Part shown: in pieces, positions 7,756-24,829 of the stretch | How positions within the stretch are numbered: position 1 is the first letter of the stretch | How the letters are laid out: each line of letters opens with the position of its first letter | IMG/VR virus record: IMGVR_UViG_3300025127_000085 | Span: 1-39,880 of that record | Source: a virus | DNA: 39,880 nt | Reading direction: 5' to 3' (one strand) | Program-made: the position numbers and the translations under genes | The notes under the pieces: generated by a model | The model's database searches: none | Told to the model about the DNA's origin: nothing | The model's input: only the letters and a program-made list of their open reading frames with translations

Positions 7756-7763
7756 ATTCTATC

Positions 7764-8249: not shown

Positions 8250-8252
8250 TGG

Positions 8253-10528: not shown

Positions 10529-10686
10529 TTTTCCTTTACATCTATTTCTACTATTTCAACATCATCAATATCGTACACCGCATCTGACACGACTTGCTCA
10601 AGTCCTATCTTTGCACCATCCTTATCTGCAGCTATGAAGTTTGCATCAGGATCTAAATCAAGTAGCATTGTTATTTCAAACAACAC
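10525..10686 (-). CDS. Small acidic protein, GTG start
   Basis: 53 residues, unrecognised. I chose GTG at 10684-10686 because GGAG lies six bases upstream; a TTG at 10696-10698 and an ATG at 10666-10668 (47 residues) are alternatives. The protein is acidic, with MLLDLDPDANFIAADKDG and a terminal DIDDVEIVEIDVKEK. Its stop overlaps the MazG start as ATGA. Filling the gap between endonuclease I and MazG in frame supports it as real. Confidence 0.65.
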   Translation of the reverse strand: MLFEITMLLDLDPDANFIAADKDGAKIGLEQVVSDAVYDIDDVEIVEIDVKEK

Positions 10687-10728
10687 AGGAATCTCCAAGT
10701 TATAATAATTAAATTAGTTACGTCAAGA

Positions 10729-11115: not shown

Positions 11116-11121
11116 GTTAGA

Positions 11122-11907: not shown

Positions 11908-11929
11908 GTATCTCTCTCTGTTATAAAAT

Positions 11930-11966
11930 AGCCCCCACCCAAAAATGAACGAAAAAGGTGGGGGCT
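11930..11966 (-). terminator. Hairpin with U-rich loop, terminator-like, between SSB and exonuclease genes
   Basis: 10-bp stem (AGCCCCCACC / GGTGGGGGCT) around a 17-base loop at 11940-11956. On the minus strand the stem is followed by TATTTTATAAC, a weak U tract. It may attenuate the transcript after the SSB gene. Its loop is nearly identical to that of the neighbouring hairpin at 11971-12003. Confidence 0.65.
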
Positions 11967-11970
11967 TAAT

Positions 11971-12003
11971 CTTCTAGGGTAAAAAGGAACGAAAACCTAG
12001 AAG
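11971..12003 (-). other. Second hairpin with matching 17-base loop, over the SSB stop codon
   Basis: 8-bp stem CTTCTAGG / CCTAGAAG that includes the SSB stop codon (11997-11999), with a 17-base loop at 11979-11995. No U tract follows directly. Loop core on the plus strand is AAAAAGGAACGAAAA, against AAAAATGAACGAAAAA in the first hairpin, while the two stems are unrelated in sequence. Confidence 0.7.
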
Positions 12004-12518
12004 GGGATAGAGTCCTGTGGTTCTTTTCGGGAGGAAGACTTACCACCAGAACTCTTCGTATGGTCTGAGAACATTTCAGAGGCTGACTGGGAGGAGACAC
12101 CCTCGCTATCATAGACCACATGATCGAGAACTTGAAGCCCTACTAGGCGTGTTCCTGAACCAACCTTTGTAGGATATATTTCAACTTTCACAATACCTTT
12201 GCTTCCATTTCCGATAAAGCCCTTCTCCTCGAAGTTCCATTCTTTACCTGATTTGTCAGCAACTACTGGAGCACCACCCATCCAGTCTTGTGAACCAACG
12301 TGAGGACGTACAACGGTTATTCTGTGACCGCCATCTACTTCCTCTATCTTCTTTTGACACCCTGCTTTTACCAAAGCATCTGCTGTCTTTTTGTCGGTGG
12401 TGACAGTGACTTTATACTCACCGTCTTTATCTTCGTTCCACTCGTTGTGATCTCTGTTTGATTCAAAGACCTTTGCCCAATCAAGTGTACCCTTAATATC
12501 AATTTGTGTTGATGGCAT
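11997..12518 (-). CDS. T7 gp2.5-like single-stranded DNA-binding protein
   Basis: 173 residues. The N-terminal 130 residues have the beta-rich pattern expected of an OB fold (GEYKVTVTTDKKTADAL, GGHRITVVRPHV, GIVKVEIYPTKVGSGTRLVGLQVLDHVVY). A Ser/Lys-rich linker leads to a short tail ending DSIPF, like bacterial SSB tails and the aromatic-ended acidic tail of T7 gp2.5 that contacts polymerase and primase-helicase. It lies just upstream in the operon of the recombination nucleases and just downstream of DNA polymerase, as in T7-like replication modules. Confidence 0.8.
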   Translation of the reverse strand: MPSTQIDIKGTLDWAKVFESNRDHNEWNEDKDGEYKVTVTTDKKTADALVKAGCQKKIEEVDGGHRITVVRPHVGSQDWMGGAPVVADKSGKEWNFEEKGFIGNGSKGIVKVEIYPTKVGSGTRLVGLQVLDHVVYDSEGVSSQSASEMFSDHTKSSGGKSSSRKEPQDSIPF

Positions 12519-12572
12519 ACTGCCCTCCTTTTCTTTTACTGTTGTTGTATTTAAATGTTTCTATTGTAGTTG

Positions 12573-14534: not shown

Positions 14535-16126
14535 ACGTTAAACACCACCTCTTCAAGAACGGTAGTCTCAGGATCGTAGAACACTGACCCTGCGTTACCT
14601 AGCTTGGCAAAGGGTCTGTTCTTATCAACAATAAAATGTGTCGTGTTTCTTTCCACATCATCCTCTGATTCAGTATCTCTGTTAAGTTTTATACAGACAA
14701 TAGCTTCCTCTTCAAGAGATGCTGCATACTTGGTGCGTCCATCATCGTTGACCTGTGATATAAATACCACACCTATATTTAATTCTTTGGCAAGCTGTGC
14801 CATTCGTGATCCAAGAGTTGTCAACGTGCTAGTAGCTGCGTCAACACCAGAGTTTGACAGGTAGGCTAGACGCTGAACGTGATCTATGAAGATGTACTCT
14901 GCACCATAGACTGTAGCTGCAAGCCTAACGTAGTCCAGGAGTTGCATAGGATCATCGTGACTTCGCATCTCAAAGATAACTGTGTTCTCACCACCTGCCA
15001 TCTTCTGTGCTGCTTTGATAACTTCATCCTCACTGAATCCTGTGGTGACTGCATCCTCTTTAGTTCTGACATTCCATCCTAGTTCGTAGGTTGCCATAGC
15101 TCTGTAGGTTGTAGACTTCATCTCTTCCATGTGGAGTAGGGCAAGCCTTGTGTTCTGCTTGAGCAGTCCTACCTCAAAGTATCTGACTAGCTCAGTCTTA
15201 CCCTGACCCCTGAGTGCTTTAATAAATGTAAGTCCACCCTTCACTAGTCCTCTGATCTTATCATCAATGCCAGTGTGTCCTGTCGGTACATACTCGTAAG
15301 GGTTCTCTGTGGTGATAGCCTTTTCTACCTCCAAGTCTCCAACAAAGAAGTTGTCTGGTGCAAATCTCTGTGGTTTGAGTGCTGCCCACTTGAGATCCGA
15401 CTCGTCACCCTTCATTAGAAAATCGTTGGCATCCTTGTGTTTGGACATAGGTACGTAGTAAAACTTCTCAGGCATAATGCTGTAAAGCTTCTGTGCTGCA
15501 CCCTGACCTGCTTGATCCAGTTCACCTGCGTAGACTACCATCTCGAAAGCGTTGAGGTAGTCAAAGTTATCCTTGATAAACTTATCTGATAGGGCTGCAC
15601 TTGGCAGTGACTTTACAGGATAGGATTTACCTAAGACTTGATACAGACTGGCTGCGTCAAACTCACCCTCAGTAATGTAGATACGCTTACTAGATCCTGC
15701 GTTAAACTCAGGTCCGAAAAGTTCTGTCAGTGACCCACGTTCTTTAGTCCAGAACTTCTTCTCGTGATAGCCACGATACTTGACGTTATCTTTGTACTTG
15801 AAAGCGTAACGTACTGGCTCACCACCCTCACCTATTTGTAGTTGGATATTGTAGAGTTTAGTTACATCTTCATCTAGTCCTCTGATACCTTCGTATCTGC
15901 CTGAGATTACGTTGACGTTACGTAAGTCTACCTTGGGTGGCGGTGGTGGATAAGTTGATTCTGCCCAGTCAAACTTCTTTGCTGAGTTTGGATAACCCCT
16001 GTTACAGGAGTGGCACTTACCTACTTTGGTTACTAGATTGTAGCTGAAAGCATCTGAACTTGCACAATCCTCGAAAGGACATGGTTGATGTGTAATCTCA
16101 TTGTTGCTGTTCACTGCTGCTGTCAT
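14531..16126 (-). CDS. T7 gp4-like primase-helicase
   Basis: 531 residues (T7 gp4 has 566). An N-terminal zinc finger uses Cys16, Cys21, Cys38 and Cys41. The TOPRIM primase part has TEGEFDAAS near 153 and GELDQAG near 203, where the usual DxD reads ELD. The helicase part has Walker A ALRGQGKT near 307, Walker B IFIDH near 412 and a glutamine-ended ISQVND motif. It unwinds DNA and primes lagging strands with the adjacent polymerase. The start ATG has AAGGA nine bases upstream and lies inside a small upstream gene. Confidence 0.93.
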   Translation of the reverse strand: MTAAVNSNNEITHQPCPFEDCASSDAFSYNLVTKVGKCHSCNRGYPNSAKKFDWAESTYPPPPPKVDLRNVNVISGRYEGIRGLDEDVTKLYNIQLQIGEGGEPVRYAFKYKDNVKYRGYHEKKFWTKERGSLTELFGPEFNAGSSKRIYITEGEFDAASLYQVLGKSYPVKSLPSAALSDKFIKDNFDYLNAFEMVVYAGELDQAGQGAAQKLYSIMPEKFYYVPMSKHKDANDFLMKGDESDLKWAALKPQRFAPDNFFVGDLEVEKAITTENPYEYVPTGHTGIDDKIRGLVKGGLTFIKALRGQGKTELVRYFEVGLLKQNTRLALLHMEEMKSTTYRAMATYELGWNVRTKEDAVTTGFSEDEVIKAAQKMAGGENTVIFEMRSHDDPMQLLDYVRLAATVYGAEYIFIDHVQRLAYLSNSGVDAATSTLTTLGSRMAQLAKELNIGVVFISQVNDDGRTKYAASLEEEAIVCIKLNRDTESEDDVERNTTHFIVDKNRPFAKLGNAGSVFYDPETTVLEEVVFNV

Positions 16127-16235
16127 TTGCTTGTTCCTTTTCTTTAGCTCTTTGTCGTTCTTCCTTGGTCATTGGCCTTATCTCTTTCGAGATTCCCTTC
16201 CTCCTGTCAATGTGCCATTCTTTTGCTTCATCCAT
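16098..16235 (-). CDS. Small charged protein overlapping primase start
   Basis: 45 residues, Lys/Arg/Glu-rich (DEAKEWHIDRRKGISKEIR, then KEERQRAKEKEQ) with a Ser/Gln tail. It fills the gap between a membrane protein and the primase-helicase and overlaps the latter by 29 bases in another frame. The ribosome site (GGTAAAG) is poor. Unrecognised; it could be a leader peptide for primase translation or a chance frame. Confidence 0.45.
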   Translation of the reverse strand: MDEAKEWHIDRRKGISKEIRPMTKEERQRAKEKEQANDSSSEQQQ

Positions 16236-16239
16236 ATCT

Positions 16240-16413
16240 TTACCATATCGGGTTCATCAAGTCAAACTTGGTGTACCAGTCAGCCCCTTCCAAAGCTAAC
16301 CACATCAGCACAGGTAATCCCAGGATTAAAAATGAACAGATAATAAATGCCCACCCTAATCCTTTTGTTGTGCAGTAGTTCTCAGTCACATCACTAGTGC
16401 AGTTTTTTGTCAT
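16240..16413 (-). CDS. Small single-pass membrane protein
   Basis: 57 residues from the ATG at 16411-16413, chosen over an upstream start because GGAGGAGGAAG lies directly before it. One membrane segment (about GWAFIICSFLILGLPVLMWL, residues 19-38) follows a short N-terminus with two cysteines. It overlaps the end of the zinc-ribbon gene. Function unknown. Confidence 0.65.
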   Translation of the reverse strand: MTKNCTSDVTENYCTTKGLGWAFIICSFLILGLPVLMWLALEGADWYTKFDLMNPIW

Positions 16414-16576
16414 CTTCTTCCTCCTCCCTTGGATAGTATACCAAAACATATGTGTTACAGTCAGGACAGGTTAGGTTAGTTACTATGCTGTACTCCCCAA
16501 AGAGGGAAGTTTGATCCTCGTCAATGTCGTGATCACCACCCCAGATTAATTCGTTATTACAGTGCCAACAGTTCAT
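16394..16576 (-). CDS. Zinc-ribbon protein
   Basis: 60 residues with two CxxC knuckles, CWHC at 3-6 and CPDC at about 37-40, separated by an acidic stretch. The tail is REEEEDDKKLH. The spacing fits a single zinc ribbon, as in small phage proteins that start MNCWHCN; these are common but uncharacterised as far as I know. It overlaps both neighbours, as many genes do in this cluster. Confidence 0.75.
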   Translation of the reverse strand: MNCWHCNNELIWGGDHDIDEDQTSLFGEYSIVTNLTCPDCNTYVLVYYPREEEEDDKKLH

Positions 16577-16787
16577 CTTTTTTTACCTTATATTTCTTTG
16601 GAAAACTTTCTCTGTTCATACCCTTTTGAACTTGCTCTGCTGCCCATGAATAGTTCTCGTTAAAATATCGTGCTGCGTCAGCTATACTGTTGAAGTCTTT
16701 GCCATGTAAACGGCAGGGTCTACCCCTCTGCTTTACTGTCGGCTCTACTTTGATACGAACATGTACTGGTACGTTCTTTGGTTGCAT
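16557..16787 (-). CDS. Small putative DNA-binding protein (NUMOD-like helix pattern)
   Basis: 76 residues, basic. The central FNSIADAARYFNENYSWAAEQVQKG has the S-x-xEAAR spacing of NUMOD1-type helix-turn-helix segments associated with homing nucleases. No nuclease motif is present. Start overlaps the upstream stop as TAATG with GGAGAG before it. DNA binding is an inference. Confidence 0.65.
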   Translation of the reverse strand: MQPKNVPVHVRIKVEPTVKQRGRPCRLHGKDFNSIADAARYFNENYSWAAEQVQKGMNRESFPKKYKVKKDELLAL

Positions 16788-16981
16788 TACTTCTCTCCTA
16801 TGTTTCTGGGTGAGTATACTTCACCGTTGTACTGGCTACCTGTCTCAGTGTCTGTTCCAAAGTTACACCATGCCAGTATAACTAGGATTGCCATGATCCA
16901 ATAGAATGAAACTTTCATCCACTTGATAAACCCTTCAAATGTTTTCTTTGCTTCTACCTCTGCTGTTTCACTTGGTGTCAT
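16787..16981 (-). CDS. Small single-pass membrane protein
   Basis: 64 residues from the ATG at 16979-16981 (AGGATTAGTA before it); a longer frame upstream has no such site. A charged N-terminus (about 20 residues) precedes one membrane segment, FYWIMAILVILAWCNFG, then a polar tail. Function unknown. Confidence 0.65.
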   Translation of the reverse strand: MTPSETAEVEAKKTFEGFIKWMKVSFYWIMAILVILAWCNFGTDTETGSQYNGEVYSPRNIGEK

Positions 16982-17156
16982 TACTAATCCTACTCTTTTC
17001 TTTAAGAAAAACATCTTCTAGCATATTAACCGCACTACGTAAATCAGGTATGTTAAAAACGCCAGACATATGATACATACTATGTAGATTCCCTAACGAA
17101 CTGTCGAGCCATCTGTCTACTTCTTTTTTATCGTATCCATTGTATTTATCACTCAT
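16968..17156 (-). CDS. Small helical protein, unknown function
   Basis: 62 residues from the ATG at 17154-17156, which overlaps the upstream stop as ATGA. Contains DKKEVDRWLDSSLGNLHSMYH and DLRSAVNMLEDVFLKEK. No motif recognised. It overlaps the downstream membrane protein by 14 bases. Confidence 0.65.
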   Translation of the reverse strand: MSDKYNGYDKKEVDRWLDSSLGNLHSMYHMSGVFNIPDLRSAVNMLEDVFLKEKSRISNDTK

Positions 17157-17326
17157 TGTTGTACATCCACTTCTAAACAAGCCACTGTCTCTGACTTGTG
17201 TGTTATCATCTTGGCTGCTTTGCTCAGTTCAATCTGGCACTCTTCCAGTGTAGCATAGTTACCCAACTGGTAGTGCTCCACTGACTGTGTGCTGAATAGC
17301 TGCATCCATACAAGTATATACATCAT
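17153..17326 (-). CDS. Small secreted or membrane-anchored protein with two cysteines
   Basis: 57 residues from the ATG at 17324-17326, with GGAGGT nine bases upstream; an upstream TTG is less likely. A hydrophobic start (MMYILVWMQLF) is followed by YATLEECQIE and, about 20 residues after that Cys, ACLEVD. The same layout (T-E-E-C...C-x-E) recurs in the plus-strand protein at 26971-27165, so the two may be distant paralogues. Probably exported or membrane-bound; function unknown. Confidence 0.7.
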   Translation of the reverse strand: MMYILVWMQLFSTQSVEHYQLGNYATLEECQIELSKAAKMITHKSETVACLEVDVQQ

Positions 17327-17327
17327 G

Positions 17328-17498
17328 TTATTCAACCTCCAGACTTTTTAACTTCTGGGATAGGACGTTGTTCTTTACTAACATGCTGACTGTTATCTTT
17401 GCCAGTTCCTCTTGAGAATATCTGCTGCATAAATTTTTAACCAAATCTTCTCGACTAATATTCACTACGTTTTTTTCTTTTAAAACATCAGATTCCAT
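17328..17498 (-). CDS. Small helical protein, unknown function
   Basis: 56 residues beginning MESDVLKEKNVVNISREDL, ending SQKLKSLEVE. A GGAG ribosome site lies eight bases before the ATG, and the stop is one base from the next start. The composition (Lys/Glu with regular leucines) suggests a helical hairpin. Not recognised. Confidence 0.75.
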   Translation of the reverse strand: MESDVLKEKNVVNISREDLVKNLCSRYSQEELAKITVSMLVKNNVLSQKLKSLEVE

Positions 17499-17509
17499 TT
17501 TATGTCTCC

Positions 17510-17719
17510 TTATATATAACTATCATTAAACTCAGTATGTATTGAGTGCCACGCTCTTGAATACTCGTAGTCCCAATTAGTACCACCGTCTTCCATCTCA
17601 CCCTCTGCTATAATCTTAGCCCAATGATCTAAGCTAGGCTCGTGATTAAGTAGCAACTCATCTTTGAAATAGAGTTTCATCCTATCTTCATCACTACCAT
17701 CTAAAACATAGGATACCAT
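17510..17719 (-). CDS. Small acidic protein, unknown function
   Basis: 69 residues, acidic, with DEDRMKLYFKDELLLNHEP and GGTNWDYEYSRAWHSIH. GAGGT precedes the ATG. It overlaps the preceding gene by 19 bases. Not recognised. Confidence 0.7.
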   Translation of the reverse strand: MVSYVLDGSDEDRMKLYFKDELLLNHEPSLDHWAKIIAEGEMEDGGTNWDYEYSRAWHSIHTEFNDSYI

Positions 17720-17886
17720 AGTTCACCTCTATCTCTATATTCTTTTACTTCGTTCAACAAGATCTTTAGCTTGTCTGCTTTGTACTGCTCACCATCCCAC
17801 TCAAGATCGTCAATGTCTCTTTGCAAATCTTTGATGTAGGATTCAACAGCCACAACTTTTTCATCTTCGTACTTCAAGTGTCTCAT
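17701..17886 (-). CDS. Small coiled-coil-like protein
   Basis: 61 residues from the ATG at 17884-17886, which overlaps the upstream stop (TAATG); an in-frame extension upstream would overlap that gene by 37 bases. Helical, with YIKDLQRDIDDLEWDGEQY and KLKILLNEVKEY, and ending ELWYPMF. Function unknown. Confidence 0.65.
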   Translation of the reverse strand: MRHLKYEDEKVVAVESYIKDLQRDIDDLEWDGEQYKADKLKILLNEVKEYRDRGELWYPMF

Positions 17887-18116
17887 TAGTGATATACTAC
17901 CTCCCCTTTTTGATCTATCCATTTCTTAAAATCTTTTGTACCGTAACCCTTCTCTTTCATGAAGTCTTGCATATCAAGTATACAATTCAACAGAGTAGAG
18001 TTTTGTTCCATAATAACTTCAACAATATCTCTGTCCTCTTTTTCTAATTTGTCGAGGAGAGATCCAACTTCAAACGTTGTTAGATACAACAAATCATCTT
18101 CCTCATCATGATCCAT
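17886..18116 (-). CDS. Small acidic protein, first gene after the 18.1-kb promoter gap
   Basis: 76 residues, very acidic at the N-terminus (MDHDEEDDLLYL), then helical (LLDKLEKEDRDIVEVIMEQ). AAGGA lies ten bases before the ATG. It is the first gene downstream of the candidate minus-strand promoter at 18192-18219 and may therefore be strongly expressed. Acidic DNA-mimic roles are possible but not shown. Confidence 0.7.
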   Translation of the reverse strand: MDHDEEDDLLYLTTFEVGSLLDKLEKEDRDIVEVIMEQNSTLLNCILDMQDFMKEKGYGTKDFKKWIDQKGEVVYH

Positions 18117-18135
18117 ACTGTTAGTTCCTTTCTTT

Positions 18136-18201
18136 AGGCTATACCTATAGTATTATTATCTATTAGTAATAATAAATATAAGTATACTTTAGGTATAACC
18201 T
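18136..18201. repeat. Large imperfect palindrome in the 18.1-kb gap
   Basis: Outer arms 18136-18153 and 18184-18201 match at 16 of 18 positions as inverted repeats. Inner arms TATTATTA (18151-18158) and TAATAATA (18166-18173) pair perfectly. The outer arms contain TACCTATAGTA (18142-18152) and TACTTTAGGTA (18185-18195), which resemble the TACTNNNAGTA motif of the 24.4-kb arrays. The AT-rich DNA could be a regulator site or a replication origin. Confidence 0.7.
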
Positions 18202-18219
18202 TTAGTTATTAGTTGGCAA
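18192..18219 (-). promoter_or_regulatory. Candidate minus-strand sigma70-like promoter
   Basis: Reading the minus strand: TTGCCA (18214-18219), 16-base spacer, TATACC (18192-18197). The -10 box overlaps the 18185-18195 palindromic arm, so a protein bound there would block it. It would drive the genes from 18116 leftward. Assigned by eye from box similarity and position in a noncoding gap of about 135 bases (18117-18252). Confidence 0.45.
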
Positions 18220-18252
18220 CTGTTGTTTTTATTTCAAGTGGGGCAAGTTGTC

Positions 18253-18327
18253 TCACCACCACAAGAGGGCTAAAAGAAGTATCCAAGCTACGTTTAAAAG
18301 GATAGCTAAAATTTCATATGCTTCCAA
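18253..18327 (-). CDS. 24-residue membrane microprotein
   Basis: A TTG start at 18325-18327 has a perfect AAGGAG seven bases upstream. The product, starting MEAYEILAILLNVAW and ending LLLALLWW, is almost entirely a single membrane helix. It lies directly behind the metallopeptidase gene and before the promoter gap, on the operon strand. Similar tiny hydrophobic phage proteins can act as holin-like or membrane-protein modulators; that is inference. Confidence 0.6.
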   Translation of the reverse strand: MEAYEILAILLNVAWILLLALLWW

Positions 18328-18342
18328 TAAATATCTCCTTTT

Positions 18343-18750
18343 TTATCTTCGTGTCCAGGCTTGATTGCCTAAGTTGTTTTCCTCTGCCCAAGTAACGAAC
18401 AGTCCTACCTCACGCCCATAGGCTTCGATCTCTGAGGGTTTATCCCAGTATGGTATGTTGTCCTCACTGTTCTGCGTTAGCTCTCCACACTCGTACTGTT
18501 TAACGTGTACTAGTTCGTGAGCCAGTGTCGTAAGCATATCTCTGAGCTTCATAGATTTATCTAGGTCTATCATGTACTCACCCTCCTCCATTTGAACACA
18601 CCCACCTAGACCGTAGTCTTTTCTTCGAAAGCACACCTCTATGTAAGGATCTATGTCGAACTTCTTTTTAAAGAACATGATCATACTTATAGCGCGTCTC
18701 TGTTGGCTCTTAGTACCTCCCTCAATCATGATCCATTTATCGTAGCTCAT
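18343..18750 (-). CDS. HExxH zinc metallopeptidase-like protein
   Basis: 135 residues. AHELVHVKQYECGEL near residue 78 gives the HExxH zinc motif. PSEIEAYGREVG, some 26 residues later, supplies a candidate third ligand (Glu), a gluzincin- or SprT-like spacing. No signal peptide is seen, so it would act in the host cytoplasm. A role in cleaving a host or phage protein early in infection is inferred from its place in the early small-gene cluster. It overlaps the upstream gene by 14 bases. Confidence 0.75.
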   Translation of the reverse strand: MSYDKWIMIEGGTKSQQRRAISMIMFFKKKFDIDPYIEVCFRRKDYGLGGCVQMEEGEYMIDLDKSMKLRDMLTTLAHELVHVKQYECGELTQNSEDNIPYWDKPSEIEAYGREVGLFVTWAEENNLGNQAWTRR

Positions 18751-18967
18751 TGTATGCTCTCTCTATCTCTTCAGCAGTGACAGGCACTAGCTCATCATCA
18801 TCACTTATCTCTATCCAGTCATAGATTTCCTCGAACAATCTTGGCCTCCAGTATCCTTTCGTATCTGGTCTTTTAATCATGTAGTCAGCTACCTTGTAGC
18901 AGTAGTCCAAGTCGTAGTTCATAAACATGACTGACTTATCTTTGTAGTTAAATATTTTAGTGTTCAT
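18737..18967 (-). CDS. Small protein, unknown function
   Basis: 76 residues from the ATG at 18965-18967, chosen because the longer GTG start would run into the upstream gene. Contains YDLDYCYKVADYMIKRPDT and an acidic C-terminal half (EISDDDELVPVTAEEIERA). Not recognised. Confidence 0.65.
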   Translation of the reverse strand: MNTKIFNYKDKSVMFMNYDLDYCYKVADYMIKRPDTKGYWRPRLFEEIYDWIEISDDDELVPVTAEEIERAYNELR

Positions 18968-18969
18968 AT

Positions 18970-19224
18970 CTACCACCCTGTACTGTACTCTGGATCTATT
19001 GGTGCGATCCCTGCGTTGTGAATATCTATCAAAGGATACCTGTCAAATAGTTCTTTGTATCTCTCTATTGCTTCTTTCTTGTTGTAACAAATCTCCCAGT
19101 GGTCACTCAGGTATACTGGTTTATCTGGATCTCCCCACTGTTGATCAGGTGTACCAGTGTCACTCCTAGTTGTGTAGAAGACTATCCACAGGTTGATGTT
19201 ATCTATTGTTGTTATATCAAGCAT
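18970..19224 (-). CDS. Small protein, unknown function
   Basis: 84 residues: beta-like N-terminus (TIDNINLWIVFYTTRSDTG), middle DKPVYLSDHWEICYNKKEA, helix ERYKELFDRY. Not recognised. It overlaps the upstream gene by eight bases, the usual spacing in this cluster. Confidence 0.65.
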   Translation of the reverse strand: MLDITTIDNINLWIVFYTTRSDTGTPDQQWGDPDKPVYLSDHWEICYNKKEAIERYKELFDRYPLIDIHNAGIAPIDPEYSTGW

Positions 19225-19432
19225 TTTCTGTTTCCTTCTTTTTCCTAAACGCTACACCACACTTGGGTATCTTTATGGAATCCCCAGTCTCGATATGTTT
19301 GAACCCCATATACTCAAGTTTATCTCTGTATCTTTCAAACGTACCAATGTACGTATAGTCAAACATGATAGCGTCTATTGCCCTGTCAAAAGCTTCTCGA
19401 ACTTCACTGTCTAGTTCTCTTTCAGTCTTCAT
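19217..19432 (-). CDS. Small protein, unknown function
   Basis: 71 residues, charged N-terminal helix (RELDSEVREAFDRAIDAIM) and a compact C-terminal part with a single Cys (IPKCGVAFRKKKETENA). Overlaps the upstream stop by four bases (ATGA). Not recognised. Confidence 0.65.
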   Translation of the reverse strand: MKTERELDSEVREAFDRAIDAIMFDYTYIGTFERYRDKLEYMGFKHIETGDSIKIPKCGVAFRKKKETENA

Positions 19433-19752
19433 TTCATTAACTCCTTTTGTTTTTCTAATCCTCTGAGCAGCATTGCTTCTGCTTCTCTTTTATCTCCACG
19501 CTTTAGCGTTTCGTATGCCCATGCTACCCAACTGTAAGCCTCTGGATCTATCTGTTCTGGGTCAGGTGCAGTCATCACTGGCTGTTGTGGTGTAGCCTGA
19601 GAATACGCCCCTACCTTGTTCTCGTTCAGAAACTCTATCAGTTGTACCTTGGACACTGGTACATCTACTTGCTTCCAGTCTTTAGGGAAGTATCTCTGAG
19701 CGTCACGCTGAGTACCAACCCACTGTCCTTTACTTGACTTGTATAGTATCAT
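19429..19752 (-). CDS. Conserved small phage protein, unknown function
   Basis: 107 residues in two parts: a 45-residue N-terminus (YKSSKGQWVGTQRDAQRYF, KDWKQVDVPVSKVQLIEFL) and, after a Pro/Gln linker, a helical repeat-like segment (WVAWAYETLKRGDKREAEAM) that resembles a single TPR-like hairpin. I recall the first part from marine phage proteins without a function. Confidence 0.7.
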   Translation of the reverse strand: MILYKSSKGQWVGTQRDAQRYFPKDWKQVDVPVSKVQLIEFLNENKVGAYSQATPQQPVMTAPDPEQIDPEAYSWVAWAYETLKRGDKREAEAMLLRGLEKQKELMK

Positions 19753-19891
19753 TACTCAGTTCCTTTACTAATTTTTCTGCTTCTTCTCTTGTTTCAAAAA
19801 GATTATCTCCCCTATCATTATACACCAAGTTACCATCTTCATCATGAACTTCATAGTTTATAACATATGTTGGTTCTATTTTATATTTCAT
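19730..19891 (-). CDS. Small acidic protein in a tight overlap cluster
   Basis: 53 residues, MKYKIEPTYVINYEVHDEDG at the start, LFETREEAEKLVKEL near the end. Start overlaps the upstream stop as ATGA, and the end overlaps the next gene by 23 bases. The beta-strand plus helix pattern (protein-like codon use, no stops) supports it as real. Not recognised. Confidence 0.65.
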   Translation of the reverse strand: MKYKIEPTYVINYEVHDEDGNLVYNDRGDNLFETREEAEKLVKELSNDTIQVK

Positions 19892-20088
19892 CTCAAGTTA
19901 TCTCCTTCATCAAAGTCCAGTTCTATTTCATCATCTAATTTGTAACTGCTTACAGTGTCTGCTGTTTGATGCCACGCCATGTCGTTTAGTGTCATACCAA
20001 GTAAACCTATTGCTAGTTGTTTTATCTCTGCCTCATCAAAATCTGAGTAGTAAATTAAATTAAATATCTTTTCTATTCTAGGTGTCAT
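19888..20088 (-). CDS. Small acidic protein, unknown function
   Basis: 66 residues: helical RIEKIFNLIYYSDFDEAEI, then QLAIGLLGMTLNDMAWHQ, then an acidic tail (DDEIELDFDEGDNLR). Overlaps the upstream gene by 11 bases. Not recognised. Confidence 0.65.
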   Translation of the reverse strand: MTPRIEKIFNLIYYSDFDEAEIKQLAIGLLGMTLNDMAWHQTADTVSSYKLDDEIELDFDEGDNLR

Positions 20089-20254
20089 AGTTATCCATCC
20101 TCATTCTTACGTCTAGTCTCCAACTAAACCCTGTTAAAGTTTTAGGTGTTGCTACACCAATATCCAAGATGTGTTCTTTTATTGCGTCATGGATTGTGTC
20201 TATTTGGTCACACTCCAAATCCTCTGCTGCTATTACAATCTCTTTGTATCTCAT
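20078..20254 (-). CDS. Small protein, unknown function
   Basis: 58 residues, MRYKEIVIAAEDLECDQIDT at the N-terminus, then IHDAIKEHILDIGVATPKTL. It starts inside an ATGA overlap with the upstream gene and runs 11 bases into the next, filling an otherwise empty 160-base gap. The alternating hydrophobic pattern looks like a folded alpha/beta domain. Not recognised. Confidence 0.65.
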   Translation of the reverse strand: MRYKEIVIAAEDLECDQIDTIHDAIKEHILDIGVATPKTLTGFSWRLDVRMRMDNYDT

Positions 20255-20664
20255 GGCTGCACCTCATACTCAAACCACTGTCTAGCCTGTGCATCAGTAA
20301 GCTTGTACTCATTGCCAGACATAGACAAACAATCCTTTACAATCCAAGGCATTTTCCTTGCTTTAGTTTTGTAGCCTACTAGCTGCATACGATACCTGAC
20401 TGACCTATGGTCTATGTATTCGTGTACCTTAGATGTATCTAGCCTGTGAAGGATAGCCATTTTTTTAAGATCCTTTTCTTCTTTAGTCTCTGCCCCATCA
20501 AGTAATACTTTTACTTTGAATGTAGCCTCACCACCTCTGTAGGTGCAGCTATCAACGAGAGTTTGTATTTTTAAATCACAAGTTTCCTCAAAATCATGTG
20601 TTACCAGTAACGAGTTTATCTCATTGCGTAGTGTTTTTAGTTGTTCTTTTGTAAAATTTGTCAT
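20251..20664 (-). CDS. Conserved phage protein, unknown function
   Basis: 137 residues. Contains CTYRGGEATFKVKVLLDGAE, then VRYRMQLVGYKTKARKMPWI and a terminal DAQARQWFEYEV. The GGEATFKV...LVGYK combination recurs in many phage early regions, as I recall, with no assigned function. Predicted alpha/beta fold. Start is coupled to the small gene at 20661-20810 by an ATGA overlap. Confidence 0.75.
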   Translation of the reverse strand: MTNFTKEQLKTLRNEINSLLVTHDFEETCDLKIQTLVDSCTYRGGEATFKVKVLLDGAETKEEKDLKKMAILHRLDTSKVHEYIDHRSVRYRMQLVGYKTKARKMPWIVKDCLSMSGNEYKLTDAQARQWFEYEVQP

Positions 20665-20810
20665 GATAATTCCTTCTTTTTAATTTCTACTGTTATGCCC
20701 TTCATGCTTAGATATTTTTTAGATAAAGTCTCTAGCTCTGCTTTGCTTTTGGTAGTGTGGTAAGCAAAAAACTTACCATCACTTCCCATAATTTTTATTA
20801 TGTACAACAC
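20661..20810 (-). CDS. Small basic protein, GTG start
   Basis: 49 residues from GTG at 20808-20810, with AGGA about 12 bases upstream inside the end of the previous gene; TTG at 20805 or ATG at 20787 are alternatives. Sequence runs LYIIKIMGSDGKFFAYHTT, then a Lys/Glu helix, then VEIKKKELS: a strand-helix-strand pattern. Ends in an ATGA overlap with the next gene. Confidence 0.6.
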   Translation of the reverse strand: MLYIIKIMGSDGKFFAYHTTKSKAELETLSKKYLSMKGITVEIKKKELS

Positions 20811-20814
20811 CAGT

Positions 20815-21159
20815 TTAGTCCATCCTTGTTATAAAATGTGTACCGTCTGGCTGTGGTAGTGCTACGATAGCGTATTCATAAAAGTATGCGTAGCCATGCT
20901 TAGTAATCATTCTACCCATGTATGGTAGGTCTGTATCATCCTTAGACACGTAATCACCATTCTTGTTTATTGTGCCTTCAAACTTGTACAGTTTACCAAA
21001 TCCGTAACGATCTTCCATGAACTGTACCAAGTCTGTGTCATCATCGTTGCCTATATGTTCAGCTACCCATAGAGGTAGTAGTCCTAGAGCTTGTGCAATT
21101 TGATTATCGCTATACTCAGGGTGTGCCTTGTTGTTTGTTGCTAGTGTTAGCTGTATCAT
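20815..21159 (-). CDS. Conserved small phage protein, unknown function
   Basis: 114 residues. N-terminal helices (SDNQIAQALGLLPLWVAEH, LVQFMEDRYGFGKLYKFEG) precede a beta-rich, aromatic C-terminal half (MITKHGYAYFYEYAIVALP). No catalytic pattern. Two bases separate it from the upstream gene. Confidence 0.7.
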   Translation of the reverse strand: MIQLTLATNNKAHPEYSDNQIAQALGLLPLWVAEHIGNDDDTDLVQFMEDRYGFGKLYKFEGTINKNGDYVSKDDTDLPYMGRMITKHGYAYFYEYAIVALPQPDGTHFITRMD

Positions 21160-21161
21160 TT

Positions 21162-21347
21162 TTATTCTCCTTTAATTTCCCAAGTGCCAACTTTATTACC
21201 GTTAATATCTCTTACATATGAGACACAGTCAGTGTCATCAATATCCCTTATATCGTTTGCTATTACTTTAAGAATGTGACACAACTCTAAGTGTGGATCT
21301 TGTGCAAAGGCATCGTTGTCCATATTTATTATACAATCAAATTTCAT
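21162..21347 (-). CDS. Small conserved phage protein, unknown function
   Basis: 61 residues, MKFDCIINMDNDAFAQDPHL at the start and RDINGNKVGTWEIKGE at the end, with a helix (ELCHILKVIANDIRD) between. This FDC-I-MDN...DINGNKVGxWEI layout recurs in phage early genes with no function known to me. ATGA overlap with the upstream gene. Confidence 0.75.
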   Translation of the reverse strand: MKFDCIINMDNDAFAQDPHLELCHILKVIANDIRDIDDTDCVSYVRDINGNKVGTWEIKGE

Positions 21348-21535
21348 TTATCTAATCCTTCTTTTGCTAATATCCTTAATACATAGTGTAGTGGTTGATC
21401 ACCTAGTGTAATTACTTTTTGTTTGCTTTCACTGTAGCGTTTAGCTTTTGCCATTGCTGAAATGTCGCTAGGTATTTTGCGAGTAGCTAGTACGTTTTCC
21501 ATTTCTAGTAATTGGTTAAATGTTACTGTTGTCAT
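21344..21535 (-). CDS. Small protein, unknown function
   Basis: 63 residues, helical, basic in the middle (DISAMAKAKRYSESKQK), ending LHYVLRILAKEGLDK. No motif recognised. Confidence 0.65.
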   Translation of the reverse strand: MTTVTFNQLLEMENVLATRKIPSDISAMAKAKRYSESKQKVITLGDQPLHYVLRILAKEGLDK

Positions 21536-21541
21536 TTTGTT

Positions 21542-21709
21542 TTATCCTTCTATTTCTTCTAACCAAGGGTCAGACTTTTCAGTTACGCCAAAGATACCCT
21601 CTGATGCCATGTTAAACATTTCATCAAAAGCATCGTGCTCATTTGTTGCGTCAAGCATTATTGAGCTAGGCTTTCCATATTCAATATAGTTAACTTTAAA
21701 TTTAGCCAT
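21542..21709 (-). CDS. Small acidic protein, unknown function
   Basis: 55 residues starting MAKFKVNYIEYGKPSSIML, then NEHDAFDEMFNM and an acidic C-terminus (SDPWLEEIEG). The ATG follows an AAAACAAAATGG context with no strong ribosome site, so coupling to the overlapping 22-residue frame upstream may matter. Fills the gap between two clear genes. Confidence 0.65.
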   Translation of the reverse strand: MAKFKVNYIEYGKPSSIMLDATNEHDAFDEMFNMASEGIFGVTEKSDPWLEEIEG

Positions 21710-21770
21710 TTTGTTTTATCCTTTTTATTTGTTCTATCCCTTCAATATCAGATAGAATTATTGCTGTCAT
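21702..21770 (-). CDS. Possible 22-residue peptide
   Basis: MTAIILSDIEGIEQIKRIKQ plus two residues. GAGGTG precedes the ATG by two to three bases, the start overlaps the upstream stop (TAATG) and the end overlaps the next gene by eight bases. Real or not, translation through it would deliver ribosomes to the next start. Confidence 0.4.
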   Translation of the reverse strand: MTAIILSDIEGIEQIKRIKQNG

Positions 21771-21973
21771 TACACCTCAGTAACTTGGTTATATTGTGTG
21801 TCTTTTATGTCACGTTCATACTCGACATAGTAGGTCACATTGCCAGGACTAGGTGCATAAGCACCTCCAAAGATAGCACTATCCAACTCTTTCCTAGTGG
21901 GTGCGCTGATGAATTGTCGCTCTCCATGTTTGTAAAATAGCGCCCAGTGTTTTAATATTTTTTTGGTTTTCAT
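21770..21973 (-). CDS. Small basic-aromatic protein, unknown function
   Basis: 67 residues: KTKKILKHWALFYKHGERQF, a middle RKELDSAIFGGAYAPSP, then NVTYYVEYERDIKDTQYNQ. Looks like a small folded domain. AAGGGAT lies eight bases before the ATG. Its first 80 bases overlap the end of the 80-residue frame upstream. Confidence 0.65.
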   Translation of the reverse strand: MKTKKILKHWALFYKHGERQFISAPTRKELDSAIFGGAYAPSPGNVTYYVEYERDIKDTQYNQVTEV

Positions 21974-22136
21974 TTCTAAATATCCCTTCTAAAAAATTAT
22001 TTATTATACAAATTTCTGTTAGTGCCTCTGTTCTTTCAATCTCAGTGCTGAAATTACTACTAGCCCTCCTTGTTAAATCATCCATATGTTCACCAAATCT
22101 ATAGAGCTTTTCTTTATGATAAATTAAACTATCCAT
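21894..22136 (-). CDS. Small helical protein, long overlap with next gene
   Basis: 80 residues, helical (DSLIYHKEKLYRFGEHMDDL, EIERTEALTEICIINNFLE). The start overlaps the upstream stop by eight bases. The end overlaps the next gene by 80 bases, unusually long for this cluster. Either both are translated or the true stop has been lost by a mutation that extended the frame. Confidence 0.5.
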   Translation of the reverse strand: MDSLIYHKEKLYRFGEHMDDLTRRASSNFSTEIERTEALTEICIINNFLEGIFRNENQKNIKTLGAILQTWRATIHQRTH

Positions 22137-22296
22137 TGTCTTTGCCTTGTTGATTTATTTGACGCATCATTTCATCAATCCTAGCTATAATTGGTGCGTT
22201 CTTTTTTTTGTAAGCTATCTCTTTTATTTTCTCTAGCATCTCCTCACGTTCTTCTAACGTTCCAAAAATAGTTCCTCTTTTTTCGTCAACAATCAT
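22129..22296 (-). CDS. Small basic helical protein
   Basis: 55 residues from the ATG at 22294-22296, where GGAG lies eight bases upstream. The longer in-frame start at 22380 is rejected because the 30-residue membrane gene occupies that DNA. Sequence is helical: GTLEEREEMLEKIKEIAYKK then APIIARIDEMMRQINQQ. Function unknown. Confidence 0.65.
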   Translation of the reverse strand: MIVDEKRGTIFGTLEEREEMLEKIKEIAYKKKNAPIIARIDEMMRQINQQGKDNG

Positions 22297-22298
22297 TT

Positions 22299-22391
22299 TT
22301 ATATCTCCATTATTAAATATGTTATGATCCATGCTAGTATTCCAAGTATAGCCGTTATTGCTATTGTTCCTATAATCCAAGTTAAAAACAT
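22299..22391 (-). CDS. 30-residue membrane microprotein
   Basis: ATG at 22389-22391 with GAGGG about seven bases upstream. Almost the whole product is one membrane helix: MFLTWIIGTIAITAILGILA then WIITYLIMEI. Its stop lies two bases before the next start, so both are read from the same transcript. Second membrane microprotein of the early cluster, besides the one at 18253-18327. Confidence 0.65.
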   Translation of the reverse strand: MFLTWIIGTIAITAILGILAWIITYLIMEI

Positions 22392-22404
22392 TTTATTACC
22401 CTCT

Positions 22405-22995
22405 TTATATGTTGTGAATACGTTTCCAAGTTACCCAAGTAATAGCTTGCATTTCAAAAGCTTTTAGCTTGCGTCCATTTACTATTGTTGCGTTTGCTGC
22501 ATCCACATACGCTTGTTGTATTTCAGTATATAATTTTTTGCCTATGTTGGTTTTATCTGTTGTTAAACCATGTCTTTCATAGCGCCAAATATTGTAAGCG
22601 TGTCCGTCTACAGTACAAGTGTCATCTCCCATAATGTTACGATAGAATGAAACAATTTTTTGCCCATTAAGAATTGAAATAGTTTGCTCGTGGTCTGGCA
22701 TTGCGTCCAGGATAGACCAAGCTTTCTCTTTCATTTTGTTATAGGTGGACACTCTAACACTCTCGATTGCATCACCATTAAGATATGCAGCAATCAATTC
22801 ATCTGTATTCTGAACGTTTCTCTCCCATTTATTATTGGGAGATAATGCAGCCATAACTCCCACAACAATGTGCAATGGCATATCATGTTTTAAAGCTAAC
22901 TTTTTAGATATGGCTTGTGCTTCAGCATACCATTTAATACCGTCTGATATTTCATCTGGAGTAGCCAGTGCGTAAACTTTTAGTATGTTATCCAT
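22405..22995 (-). CDS. Conserved phage protein, possibly HhH-GPD glycosylase-like
   Basis: 196 residues, fully helical. Conserved-looking blocks: ISDGIKWYAEA near 16, VVGVMAALSPNNKWERN near 45-61, KIVSFYRNIMGDDTCTVDGH near 112-132 with AYNIWR following. I recall this pattern from many phages, annotated only as conserved. The K-x-xxFYRNI...VDGHAYN order resembles the helix-hairpin-helix and catalytic Asp region of HhH-GPD DNA glycosylases, so a base-excision or base-sensing role is possible. This is a pattern match by eye only. Confidence 0.7.
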   Translation of the reverse strand: MDNILKVYALATPDEISDGIKWYAEAQAISKKLALKHDMPLHIVVGVMAALSPNNKWERNVQNTDELIAAYLNGDAIESVRVSTYNKMKEKAWSILDAMPDHEQTISILNGQKIVSFYRNIMGDDTCTVDGHAYNIWRYERHGLTTDKTNIGKKLYTEIQQAYVDAANATIVNGRKLKAFEMQAITWVTWKRIHNI

Positions 22996-22998
22996 TTT

Positions 22999-23223
22999 TT
23001 ATTTACTCCCGTATTTTATTTGTTTCATTTTGTTTTCAAGCTGTTCCAATGTTGAGCCAGTAATATCACTAATTTTACAATCCCCAAATTCGCCTACAAT
23101 ATAAGTATAGCCTCTATCCCAAGAACCTAGCTGGTATATTGCTGCTGTTGCAGCTTCTTCTAGATTATTAAATGTTTCTGTCCATTCACATCTATCTAAT
23201 GTTTTGTAAGTTAACTCTATCAT
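22999..23223 (-). CDS. Small acidic protein, unknown function
   Basis: 74 residues: IELTYKTLDRCEWTETFNNL, then an alanine-rich helix, GYTYIVGEFGDCKISDITG and a C-terminal helix. An alpha/beta domain by pattern. Two bases from the downstream gene. Not recognised. Confidence 0.7.
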   Translation of the reverse strand: MIELTYKTLDRCEWTETFNNLEEAATAAIYQLGSWDRGYTYIVGEFGDCKISDITGSTLEQLENKMKQIKYGSK

Positions 23224-23247
23224 TTTGTTTACTCCTTTTTTAATTAA

Positions 23248-23559
23248 TTAATATCTAGCCGCATAATAACGTAATTGTTCAATATCTTTTGCAGTACCTA
23301 TTTTATATTCTCCATTATCATAAGCACCTAAAATAAAATCACTCCAATATTCTCTATTGGGCATTAATGTAAAAAAATCTTCTCTATCTTCTGCGCTATC
23401 AAAATCAATAGTACCTACGATATTTCTAACACTATCTATAAAAACAATATCATGCTCTAAAAATCTATCGTCATAATCAGCGTTATCTTTTAACATAACA
23501 TGTATTATTTGTTCTTTGTTGTCGTAAATTCTATCGGTTTCTATTCTAAAGATTTTCAT
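23248..23559 (-). CDS. First early gene, small protein of unknown function
   Basis: 103 residues, acidic. N-terminal strand-like KIFRIETDRIYDN, then EHDIVFIDSVRNIVGTIDF and DREDFFTLMPNREYWSDFI. It is the first minus-strand gene after the control region, with AAGGAT before the ATG. First early genes often encode host-takeover or anti-defence proteins; nothing in the sequence confirms this. Confidence 0.7.
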   Translation of the reverse strand: MKIFRIETDRIYDNKEQIIHVMLKDNADYDDRFLEHDIVFIDSVRNIVGTIDFDSAEDREDFFTLMPNREYWSDFILGAYDNGEYKIGTAKDIEQLRYYAARY

Positions 23560-23587
23560 TTTTATTTATCCTTTTCATTTTTCCATA

Positions 23588-23658
23588 GCTATCGCTGTCG
23601 AGGCTGTTAGTCCTCACGCAAATAAAGAGCGAATTTGAGGACTGGCTGTCAAGATAGC
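23588..23658 (-). promoter_or_regulatory. Structured leader of the first minus-strand gene
   Basis: Nested inverted repeats upstream of the 23559 start: GCTATC (23588-23593) with GATAGC (23653-23658), and AGTCCTCA (23609-23616) with TGAGGACT (23636-23643), extended by CGC/GCG (23617-23619 / 23629-23631) with a four-base bulge and an A-rich loop. No U tract follows, so this is more likely a 5' stabiliser, attenuator or regulatory leader than a terminator. Confidence 0.55.
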
Positions 23659-23828
23659 CAACAAGCCAAAACGCAAAAAAGTTTAAAAATAGAGTAATTA
23701 TTTTAAAAAGTGTTACTGAATTACCACGAACAAAAACAGAACATCAGAATTTTTTGCAGCTGGCTCTGCACTTGCAAAATGATTGCCGCAATGCAAAAAC
23801 GAATCAGTGCAATGCAGCATAAATATAA

Positions 23829-23840
23829 TTGTGATCACAA
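23829..23840. promoter_or_regulatory. Family A palindrome, copy 1
   Basis: TTGTGATCACAA, a perfect 12-bp palindrome with core TGTGATCACA. One of three copies in the control region (others at 23884 and 24175). Operator-like; resembles half of a CRP-type site but is shorter. Confidence 0.6.
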
Positions 23841-23883
23841 GTGTGTAGGTGTACTGTTTAAGTTTATAGTTGCTTCCTATATT

Positions 23884-23893
23884 TGTGATCACA
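23884..23893. promoter_or_regulatory. Family A palindrome, copy 2
   Basis: TGTGATCACA, 54 bases from copy 1 centre to centre. A plus-strand TATAAT begins two bases after it (23896-23901), so a bound protein would cover a -10 box, though no good -35 box lies at standard spacing. Confidence 0.55.
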
Positions 23894-23901
23894 GCTATAA
23901 T

Positions 23902-24012
23902 AGTTTAATACTGAACGATATTCTTTAAGAAATAGTTTAAAGTTAAACTAAATTTCCCCTATTACAGTTTAATACTAAACTAAAATACTAAAAGTAGTTT
24001 AATGTTAAACTA
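23902..24012. repeat. Family B operator array, four palindromes at 30-32 bp
   Basis: Copies: imperfect AGTTTAATACTGAACG (23902-23917); TAGTTTAAAGTTAAACTA (23933-23950); AGTTTAATACTAAACT (23966-23981); TAGTTTAATGTTAAACTA (23995-24012). Centres are 32, 32 and 30 bp apart, close to three helical turns, so dimers bound to all four would lie on one face of the DNA. Likely a repressor or origin-binding array. Confidence 0.75.
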
Positions 24013-24139
24013 TCTCCAGCATATTGTGCCTGTATTCCTAACGTATACAGCATATAGTATAAGGGTAGGCATGGTACACGTGGGGGGTGTACGTTATATA
24101 TGTATGCTCAATGACAGAGAGGGGTATTTTAGGTCTGTT

Positions 24140-24171
24140 AACCACATTGTTAATCAAGTGGTTTACACTTG
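24140..24171. repeat. Alternative hairpins upstream of the 24.19-kb promoter
   Basis: AACCAC (24140-24145) can pair with GTGGTT (24158-24163), while CAAGTG (24155-24160) can pair with CACTTG (24166-24171). The two are mutually exclusive. They precede the candidate promoter at 24169-24196. Could be protein sites or cruciforms. Confidence 0.4.
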
Positions 24172-24196
24172 AGTTGTGATCACATTTAGATATAAC
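24169..24196 (+). promoter_or_regulatory. Plus-strand promoter with family A operator in its spacer
   Basis: TTGAGT (24169-24174), 16-base spacer, TATAAC (24191-24196). The third TGTGATCACA copy (24175-24184) follows the -35 box directly, inside the spacer. Predicted start of transcription falls at about 24203, at the ATG of the 36-residue frame, so the message could be leaderless. Confidence 0.55.
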
Positions 24197-24203
24197 TAAA
24201 GAT

Positions 24204-24314
24204 ATGAAACTATATAAGGTAAAGAACAAGTATATCCTCCTGGATGACAAGGGGTTTGTTCTAATTATAACTAGATATAAAAGTATATGCTTACATCTTA
24301 TGGGTGTGACATAG
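24204..24314 (+). CDS. Possible 36-residue protein, maybe leaderless
   Basis: MKLYKVKNKYILLDDKGFVL, then an Ile/Arg/Cys-containing tail ending LMGVT. No ribosome site stands out, but a promoter ends eight bases upstream. The palindrome TGACATAGTGTCA (24307-24319) covers its stop. The strand-turn-strand look of YKVKNKYILLDDKGFVLII is protein-like. It could be a small regulator of the control region or a remnant of a longer gene. Confidence 0.35.
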   Translation: MKLYKVKNKYILLDDKGFVLIITRYKSICLHLMGVT

Positions 24315-24360
24315 TGTCATGGCGTGTATTATCCTGTTGTTTTATACTTGAAGCGTGTAT

Positions 24361-24396
24361 AACTATTAGTATATACTTATAGTAATACTTAAGGTA
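24361..24396. repeat. Family C iteron-like triplet 1
   Basis: AACTATTAGTA (24361-24371), TACTTATAGTA (24374-24384), TACTTAAGGTA (24386-24396). Consensus TACTNNNAGTA with centres 13 and 12 bp apart. The same 13/12 spacing recurs in triplet 2. Confidence 0.65.
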
Positions 24397-24412
24397 TCAT
24401 TACCTTTATTTT
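24391..24412 (+). terminator. Weak terminator-like hairpin
   Basis: AAGGTA (24391-24396), loop TCAT, TACCTT (24401-24406), then TATTTTTTAT. The 6-bp stem has only two G-C pairs. It could end a short transcript from the 24.19-kb promoter. It overlaps a family C motif, so it may only be part of that array. Confidence 0.35.
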
Positions 24413-24426
24413 TTATACCTTTATTT

Positions 24427-24442
24427 ATACTAATATTAGTAT
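24427..24442. repeat. 16-bp perfect palindrome between the iteron triplets
   Basis: ATACTAATATTAGTAT, centred 13.5 bp before the first motif of triplet 2. It contains the TACT...AGTA half sites of family C with a longer spacer (TACTAATATTAGTA). Confidence 0.6.
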
Positions 24443-24478
24443 TACTAACAGTAACTACTTAAAGTATTACTTACAGTA
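24443..24478. repeat. Family C iteron-like triplet 2
   Basis: TACTAACAGTA (24443-24453), TACTTAAAGTA (24456-24466), TACTTACAGTA (24468-24478); centres 13 and 12 bp apart, exactly as in triplet 1, which starts 82 bp upstream. Consensus TACTTANAGTA. A further copy lies in the promoter at 24544. Confidence 0.7.
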
Positions 24479-24530
24479 CCCCATATTCTGCTTTTGTTGT
24501 CCCTTTTTTGGAAAAAAAGATAAAAGTATG

Positions 24531-24558
24531 TTGACATAGGTACTACTTTAAGTACAAC
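24531..24558 (+). promoter_or_regulatory. Main plus-strand promoter with family C operator
   Basis: TTGACA (24531-24536), 16-base spacer, TACAAC (24553-24558) followed by TACCG. A family C palindrome, TACTTTAAGTA (24544-24554), sits in the spacer and touches the -10 box. Upstream, CCCTTTTTTGGAAAAAAAG (from 24511) is an A/T tract at UP-element distance. Predicted start near 24565, only about seven bases before the 24572 ATG. Confidence 0.7.
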
Positions 24559-24571
24559 TACCGAAATCCAA

Positions 24572-24829
24572 ATGAGTAAAAACAGAATTAAGTACTTCGA
24601 GTCTGACTCAGTGCTAGAAGAGTTCTACAACGCACTAGCCAACCAAGACGAAAAGAAGCTCAGAAGAGTACACATCCCCAGATCTGATGTCTTTTATGTA
24701 CGCAGAGCGTATTTTGAAAGTACAGGCAACTGGGAATCCCTAGATAGAATAGAAAGATCAATGTACCTGGAGGGTATGTTGTCCAGATTTGACGTTCTAG
24801 ACCCCGAAAGAAAAAGAGACTGGGAATAA
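24572..24829 (+). CDS. Conserved small phage protein, first rightward gene
   Basis: 85 residues, highly charged: RIKYFESDSVLEEFYNAL, KKLRRVHIPRSDVFYVRRAY, then SLDRIERSMYLEGMLSRFDV and DPERKRDWE. I recall the last block from marine phages, function unknown. No ribosome site is visible before the ATG, and the predicted leader is about seven bases, so translation may be leaderless-like. First gene of the lysis and morphogenesis operon. Confidence 0.75.
   Translation: MSKNRIKYFESDSVLEEFYNALANQDEKKLRRVHIPRSDVFYVRRAYFESTGNWESLDRIERSMYLEGMLSRFDVLDPERKRDWE

Follow-up and report, generated by a model that had tools for sequence, protein, structure and literature searches.

The divergent intergenic region of a virus record whose nearest isolates are the Roseobacter phages CRP-9, CRP-13 and CRP-1 contains four evenly spaced palindromes, and this raises the question of which protein reads them and what it controls. 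The window analyzed here is the whole record of 39,880 bp. Its DNA polymerase is 75% identical to that of CRP-9, 70% to that of CRP-13 and ~50% to those of Cobaviruses. Judged by its sequence, the window is a CRP-9/CRP-13-like roseophage within the HMO-2011/Cobavirus-type roseophages. Genomes of CRP-9 and CRP-13 combine a Cobavirus-type replication module with an HMO-2011-type morphogenesis module (PMC8528129). The leftward genes of the window (7187–23559) include ribonucleotide reductase, exonuclease, DNA polymerase, and primase/helicase, and the rightward genes (24572 onward) include endolysin, spanin-like proteins, terminase, and portal. Between the two sets is a gap (23560–24571; 1,012 bp, 68% A+T) that contains the array, with the replication genes on one side and the lysis and packaging genes on the other. 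The first leftward early ORF (23248–23559, minus strand, 103 aa) and the first rightward ORF (24572–24829, plus strand, 85 aa) have no assigned function; the latter is kept in relatives with and without the array. A 36-codon ORF with recognizable counterparts in close relatives is present inside the gap at 24204–24314 and is probably the 36-residue protein mentioned in an earlier note on this DNA.

The palindrome, here called the A site, has the motif TAGTTTAA-NN-TTAAACTA and occurs in four copies, two perfect and two degenerate. Site A1 (23901–23918, TAGTTTAATACTGAACGA, centre 23909.5) is degenerate, with 5 of 8 arm pairs and 3 mismatches to the consensus TAGTTTAANNTTAAACTA, and its position matrix score is over the threshold. 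Sites A2 (23933–23950, TAGTTTAAAGTTAAACTA, centre 23941.5) and A4 (23995–24012, TAGTTTAATGTTAAACTA, centre 24003.5) have perfect 8-bp arms and are kept in relatives, while A3 (23965–23982, CAGTTTAATACTAAACTA, centre 23973.5) has 2 mismatches and 6 of 8 arm pairs. The centre spacings of 32, 32, and 30 bp given in the earlier note were confirmed at all four centres, as was its description of two sites with perfect arms around a 2-bp spacer. A2 and A4 are the sole palindromes of this perfect form in the 39,880-bp window. At up to 3 mismatches the window holds 5 matches, 4 of which are the array; shuffles are expected to hold 0.95, and none of 100 shuffles reached 5. Among first-order Markov shuffles of the intergenic region, 0.1% contained two perfect palindromes and 0.04% contained four near-perfect ones within 112 bp. 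The region is A+T-rich and two of the four sites are degenerate, as would be expected if the A sites were functionless chance palindromes; that explanation is nevertheless very improbable, since it is contradicted by the shuffle controls, by which a chance origin was ruled out, as well as by the conservation, single location, and helical phase of the array. The earlier note had named equally phased palindromes in random sequence of the same A+T content, or a lack of conservation, as results that would count against it. Neither was observed: the array is kept in relatives, and its phase holds across them.

Viral-contig loci of relatives were collected by means of three neighboring proteins. The A motif was present in about 55 of 88 distinct upstream regions, ~460–920 bp ahead of the first rightward gene; where relatives are complete or long, it occurs at this junction only. 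The motif was matched in 39 of 44 phage records, with the listed matches clustering at this place, and the reversed control pattern in none of the 44; the array-bearing phages are related by descent, and such genome counts overstate their independence. The array is present in CRP-9 and CRP-13. It was not found at the equivalent junction in the HMO-2011-type phage CRP-1 or in the Cobaviruses ICBM1, ICBM2, CRP-4, CRP-5, and SIO1.

The spacing of the sites follows the turn of the helix. A position matrix for A sites, applied at a threshold that gave no hits in shuffled sequence, yielded 72 spacings from 29 non-redundant arrays: 20–23 bp (16 cases), 28–33 bp (48 cases), and then 35, 40, 43, 44, 47, 53, and 64 bp. 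The vector strength of these spacings is maximal at 10.5 bp (R = 0.67, phase 0.2 bp), and the 26 distinct spacing patterns alone give R = 0.64. The observed phase statistic was reached by none of 200,000 random draws of that effective size, a figure that is not a formal probability because the spacings are related by descent. Length changes by whole turns are a prediction of one-face binding. The earlier note had read the regular phase as a sign of dimer sites on one DNA face and had proposed a search of relatives for co-varying spacing. The relatives support the one-face reading, as their spacings differ yet remain at whole turns, with a period of 10.5 bp and a phase of about 0. The 29 non-redundant arrays are thus phased arrays, with sites on one face, at whole turns, and kept in evolution.

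No promoter or operator is described in the searched papers on CRP phages, HMO-2011-type phages or Cobaviruses. In the window, alignment of relatives revealed a conserved promoter-like element at 23865–23873 on the minus strand (plus strand TATAGTTGC; minus strand GCAACTATA), which is a candidate −10 region for the leftward early genes. The four A sites lie 44.5, 76.5, 108.5, and 138.5 bp upstream of this element, and across relatives they are in fixed phase with it (best period 10.5–10.6 bp). Because a scan for sigma-70 consensus promoters gives no call at the element, we infer its promoter role from its conservation and position. A second palindrome, B (23883–23894, TTGTGATCACAG), is located between the element and A1, 21 bp from A1, and further copies of the TTGTGATCACAA type are found at 23829–23840 and 24174–24185. 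Spacings between B sites in relatives (30, 31, 42–44, 54, 63–67, and 74–75 bp) are near whole turns, and in CRP-9 (L239) an A site occupies the expected B position. As the A and B sites are both phased, the gap appears to be a control region in which two sets of dyads share one helical register. The three B palindromes of the window are near-identical, TTGTGATCACA; B is also present in the array-less HMO-2011-type CRP-1 (L240), and a tandem B pair was seen in one alphaproteobacterial genome (L355).

Other repeats are present in the same gap. A third repeat family, TACTTAAAGTA / ACTTTAAGT, extends over 24384–24560, and one copy lies within a conserved promoter-like stretch, TTGACA-17-ACAACT, that immediately precedes the first rightward gene. 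The intergenic region of CRP-4 (L249:39810–39936) has similar TACTTAAAGG repeats. At 24338–24374 a TTGTTTTATACTTGAAGCGTGTATAACTA stretch, a candidate rightward promoter, is kept in relatives. The equivalent Cobavirus gap in CRP-4 (L249:40260–40442) holds palindromic repeats of the ATAGGTAAGCAGTACTGACCTAT type 44 bp apart, which might be another set of operators at the corresponding place.

The array is also found in phages outside this group. A search of a viral collection identified arrays of 3–4 sites in G042, G044, and G048, with spacings of 31, 28, and 31 bp, 30 and 31 bp, and 32, 22, and 32 bp, respectively. The terminase and capsid of these phages have Sinorhizobium phage phiM5 as their nearest named isolate. 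In BLAST and profile comparisons their similarity to the array-bearing roseophages was limited to the polymerase and to weakly matching structural or spanin-like proteins. Two other phages, G047 and G049, have Cobavirus-type early genes and two sites 42 bp apart.

The place of the array in these genomes bears on a function in replication or packaging, in which the sites would be origin iterons or part of a terminase recognition region near the genome end. The array is at the junction of two genomic arms, where Cobaviruses and phiM5 have direct terminal repeats, and in G042, G044, and G048 it adjoins a small gene beside the large terminase gene. In the window it is flanked by a strongly conserved G-rich block at 24063–24148. 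This assignment of the array is unlikely, however, as the sites form perfect dyads whose centre is a pyrimidine-purine step and whose logo is of the operator type, the motif matches operators of bacterial genes, and such an array is missing from the corresponding junction of the HMO-2011-type CRP-1 and of the Cobaviruses. The gap as a whole may have a terminal-repeat or origin function, since Cobaviruses and phiM5 have terminal repeats at the equivalent junction. The G-rich block itself (GGCATGG...GTGGGGGGTGTACG...TGACAGAGAGGGGTATTTT...CTGTTAACCAC) stands out in the A+T-rich gap, contains a short hairpin, and is possibly a terminal-repeat, packaging or origin element; a G- or C-run likewise adjoins the arrays of G042, G044, and G048.

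The same palindrome occurs before bacterial operons that encode a MarR regulator. A pattern search for two exact A sites 4–30 bp apart in 84,980 prokaryote genomes returned 7 loci. Four are operons encoding a MarR regulator, 3 of which start with a nitroreductase-like protein; the others are an archaeal locus before a MazE-like antitoxin and two lactobacillalean loci before a sugar transporter operon, in which no obvious MarR gene was found. Since the archaeal and lactobacillalean loci differ from the MarR operons, other families may read the same palindrome. In the alphaproteobacterial locus L291 the first gene product is an Acg-type FMN oxidoreductase. With its MarR protein as query, homologues were found in 32 of 385 alphaproteobacterial genomes (E 1e-20 or better), and 15 of 30 fetched MarR/Acg nitroreductase operons had the palindrome −14 to 26 bp from the first gene, counts that refer to Alphaproteobacteria at large and not to roseobacters in particular. 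Twelve of the 15 have two sites, spaced by 21, 22 or 24 bp. No further site at up to 3 mismatches was found in 102 kb of fetched MarR-operon loci. MarR-nitroreductase operons with paired operators 21–24 bp apart are represented by L291, L289, L290, and L324–L341.

The logos of the phage and MarR-operon sites agree at all nine half-site positions. The inner positions are biased because they were part of the search pattern, but two positions were outside it: the outer T (0.90 in MarR operons, 0.95 in phages) and the central pyrimidine-purine step (0.91 and 0.79, respectively). The agreement at these un-queried positions favors the view that the site is read by a winged-helix dimer of the MarR type. 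The A site also has the features of a MarR-type operator, being dyad-symmetric, ~16–20 bp long, and a match to the inferred MarR operators. Both the phage array and the alphaproteobacterial MarR-Acg operons (L291, L324–L341) have the 18-bp dyad TAGTTTAAY/RTTAAACTA with the outer T and the central pyrimidine-purine step, and in both the sites are in tandem at whole helical turns (21–24 bp in the bacteria). The two systems differ in layout, as in the bacteria one or two sites immediately precede the first gene of the operon, whereas the phage has four sites 2–3 turns apart in a divergent gap. They also differ in that no MarR gene was recognized in the phage window. Apart from the MarR operon, the 385 alphaproteobacterial genomes contain the exact motif at background frequency (9 with a match, 6 with a control match), so this operon would be its main chromosomal target; on the same result a general host regulon was rejected. 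Plasmid-borne MarR genes were sought and none was found. A search of 5.39 million papers found no instance of the motif in print, including for the MarR-nitroreductase operon.

Other known dyads were compared with the array. The consensus of the ParB site parS is TGTTTCACGTGAAACA, and like the A site parS is a 16-bp palindrome with GTTT...AAAC arms and a similar centre. Identity with parS was rejected, as the A site has two symmetric mismatches to the parS consensus and no ParB family is among the Pfam matches of the window. The OL and OR operators of lambda, like the phage array, comprise several dyads within a divergent control region, at distances suited to contacts between dimers. Lambda has three sites per operator and its repressor gene alongside, whereas no repressor gene was found in the window. 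In the temperate T7-like phage LUZ100, a MarR-type regulator has been proposed for early phage transcription, and its gene lies beside an integrase gene (PMC10134795); the window has neither a recognized MarR gene nor a recognized integrase gene. The search for A-type palindromes in LUZ100 gave none, and the LUZ100 MarR does not align with the MarR-like protein of CRP-13 described below. The T7 protein Gp5.7 is summarized in the abstract of its study as a 7-kDa winged-helix-like repressor of early promoters of the host RNA polymerase (PMC5569994). In this it resembles the proposed reader, as a small DNA-binding protein of the winged-helix type that works at early promoters of a phage, and that abstract does not describe a four-site palindromic array. 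Searches here with the LUZ100 MarR and with the LUZ100 Gp5.7-like protein gave no homologue of either.

Searches among the phage proteins returned no clear binder. The 62 proteins of the window gave no match to a transcription-factor family in Pfam, in line with the remark in the earlier note that no repressor gene is obvious, and a profile of MarR proteins had no match in the window. A DUF1127 protein (PF06568, E 1.2e-7) is present among the 62; this domain is common in small alphaproteobacterial proteins. A phage-encoded binder is possible because CRP-13, of the same group, has a MarR-like protein of its own (L245:1991–2323). This 110-aa protein is hypothetical in the CRP-13 annotation and is also encoded in the close relative G026; its loci include L264:3018–3350 and L353:3584–3913. 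Its best match is NCBIfam BilQ (E 2.3e-5, below the cut-off), and a structure search gave weak matches, many of them MarR proteins and none with E < 0.001. Only three phages of the group were seen to have the gene, which speaks against its product as the general reader of the array. Two small proteins (17701–17922 and 17886–18116) were the sole matches of a co-occurrence screen: 18 of the 23 genomes with the array have them, and none of the 11 without it. Such co-occurrence is expected anyway because the array-bearing phages form one lineage; the two proteins are acidic, helical, and unlike DNA binders, and they were judged to be lineage markers. The protein encoded at 16557–16787 belongs to a small basic family in which a NUMOD1/I-TevI-like HTH is suspected. 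It is present in 11 array-bearing and 0 array-less genomes, and its predicted structure, which is of low confidence, weakly matches the DNA-binding domain of I-TevI. The Cobavirus HTH protein ICBM2 gp05 was rejected, as it is absent from the window and from most array-bearing phages and occurs among these only in G034–G036.

The array might thus consist of operators for a phage-encoded regulator, whether a small unrecognizable early protein, the CRP-13 MarR-like protein or the basic HTH-like protein of 16557–16787. There are precedents for this in phage MarR regulators (PMC10134795) and, as outlined in the abstract cited above, in a small phage winged-helix repressor (PMC5569994). This origin of the regulator is nonetheless doubtful, since the unrelated array-bearing lineage of G042, G044, and G048 has none of these candidate proteins. 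BLAST and profile-profile comparisons found no candidate regulator common to that lineage and the roseophages, the best match being a spanin-like pair at 42%. The earlier note had left open whether the binder is a small early protein or comes from the host. A host factor is now favored and the small early protein disfavored, because an unrelated phage lineage has the array and shares no such protein. On these sequence comparisons, the same array in lineages with no common regulator points to a host-supplied factor, although the two lineages may instead have convergent phage regulators.

The reading that we prefer, with a probability of roughly 55%, is that the array represents operators for a homodimeric MarR-type winged-helix regulator that is likelier host- than phage-encoded and that would control divergent transcription. 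One MarR-type dimer would occupy each 18-bp dyad. The dimers would be 2 or 3 helical turns apart on one DNA face, upstream of and in phase with the leftward replication-gene promoter. In such an arrangement neighbors, perhaps including RNA polymerase, could touch, and binding may be cooperative. The array would then set how strongly the early leftward genes are transcribed relative to the late rightward ones. MarR-like regulators have been reported to act by activation or repression according to the position of their sites (PMC9648850). The outcome here could be activation of early transcription, its repression, or repression of the promoter in the opposite direction. One finding against this reading is that the promoter-like element of the leftward genes does not follow the sigma-70 consensus. 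More tentatively, two unrelated podophage lineages may have independently gained a phased, multi-site version of a host MarR operator, in which case a host regulator of the stress/redox type, and not a phage-encoded protein, would be the sensor that times early and late genes.

Overall, the array is a concrete and testable control element with a predicted protein class, and the analysis also defines the operator of an apparently uncharacterized alphaproteobacterial MarR-nitroreductase operon. The phage may borrow a host regulator to time its genes, since many bacteria of its likely host class have the same site before a detoxification operon with a regulator of its own. If the regulator is that of the host, this would explain a divergent early/late switch in phages with no obvious regulator gene, and the timing of a lytic phage would be tied to a detoxification circuit of its host.
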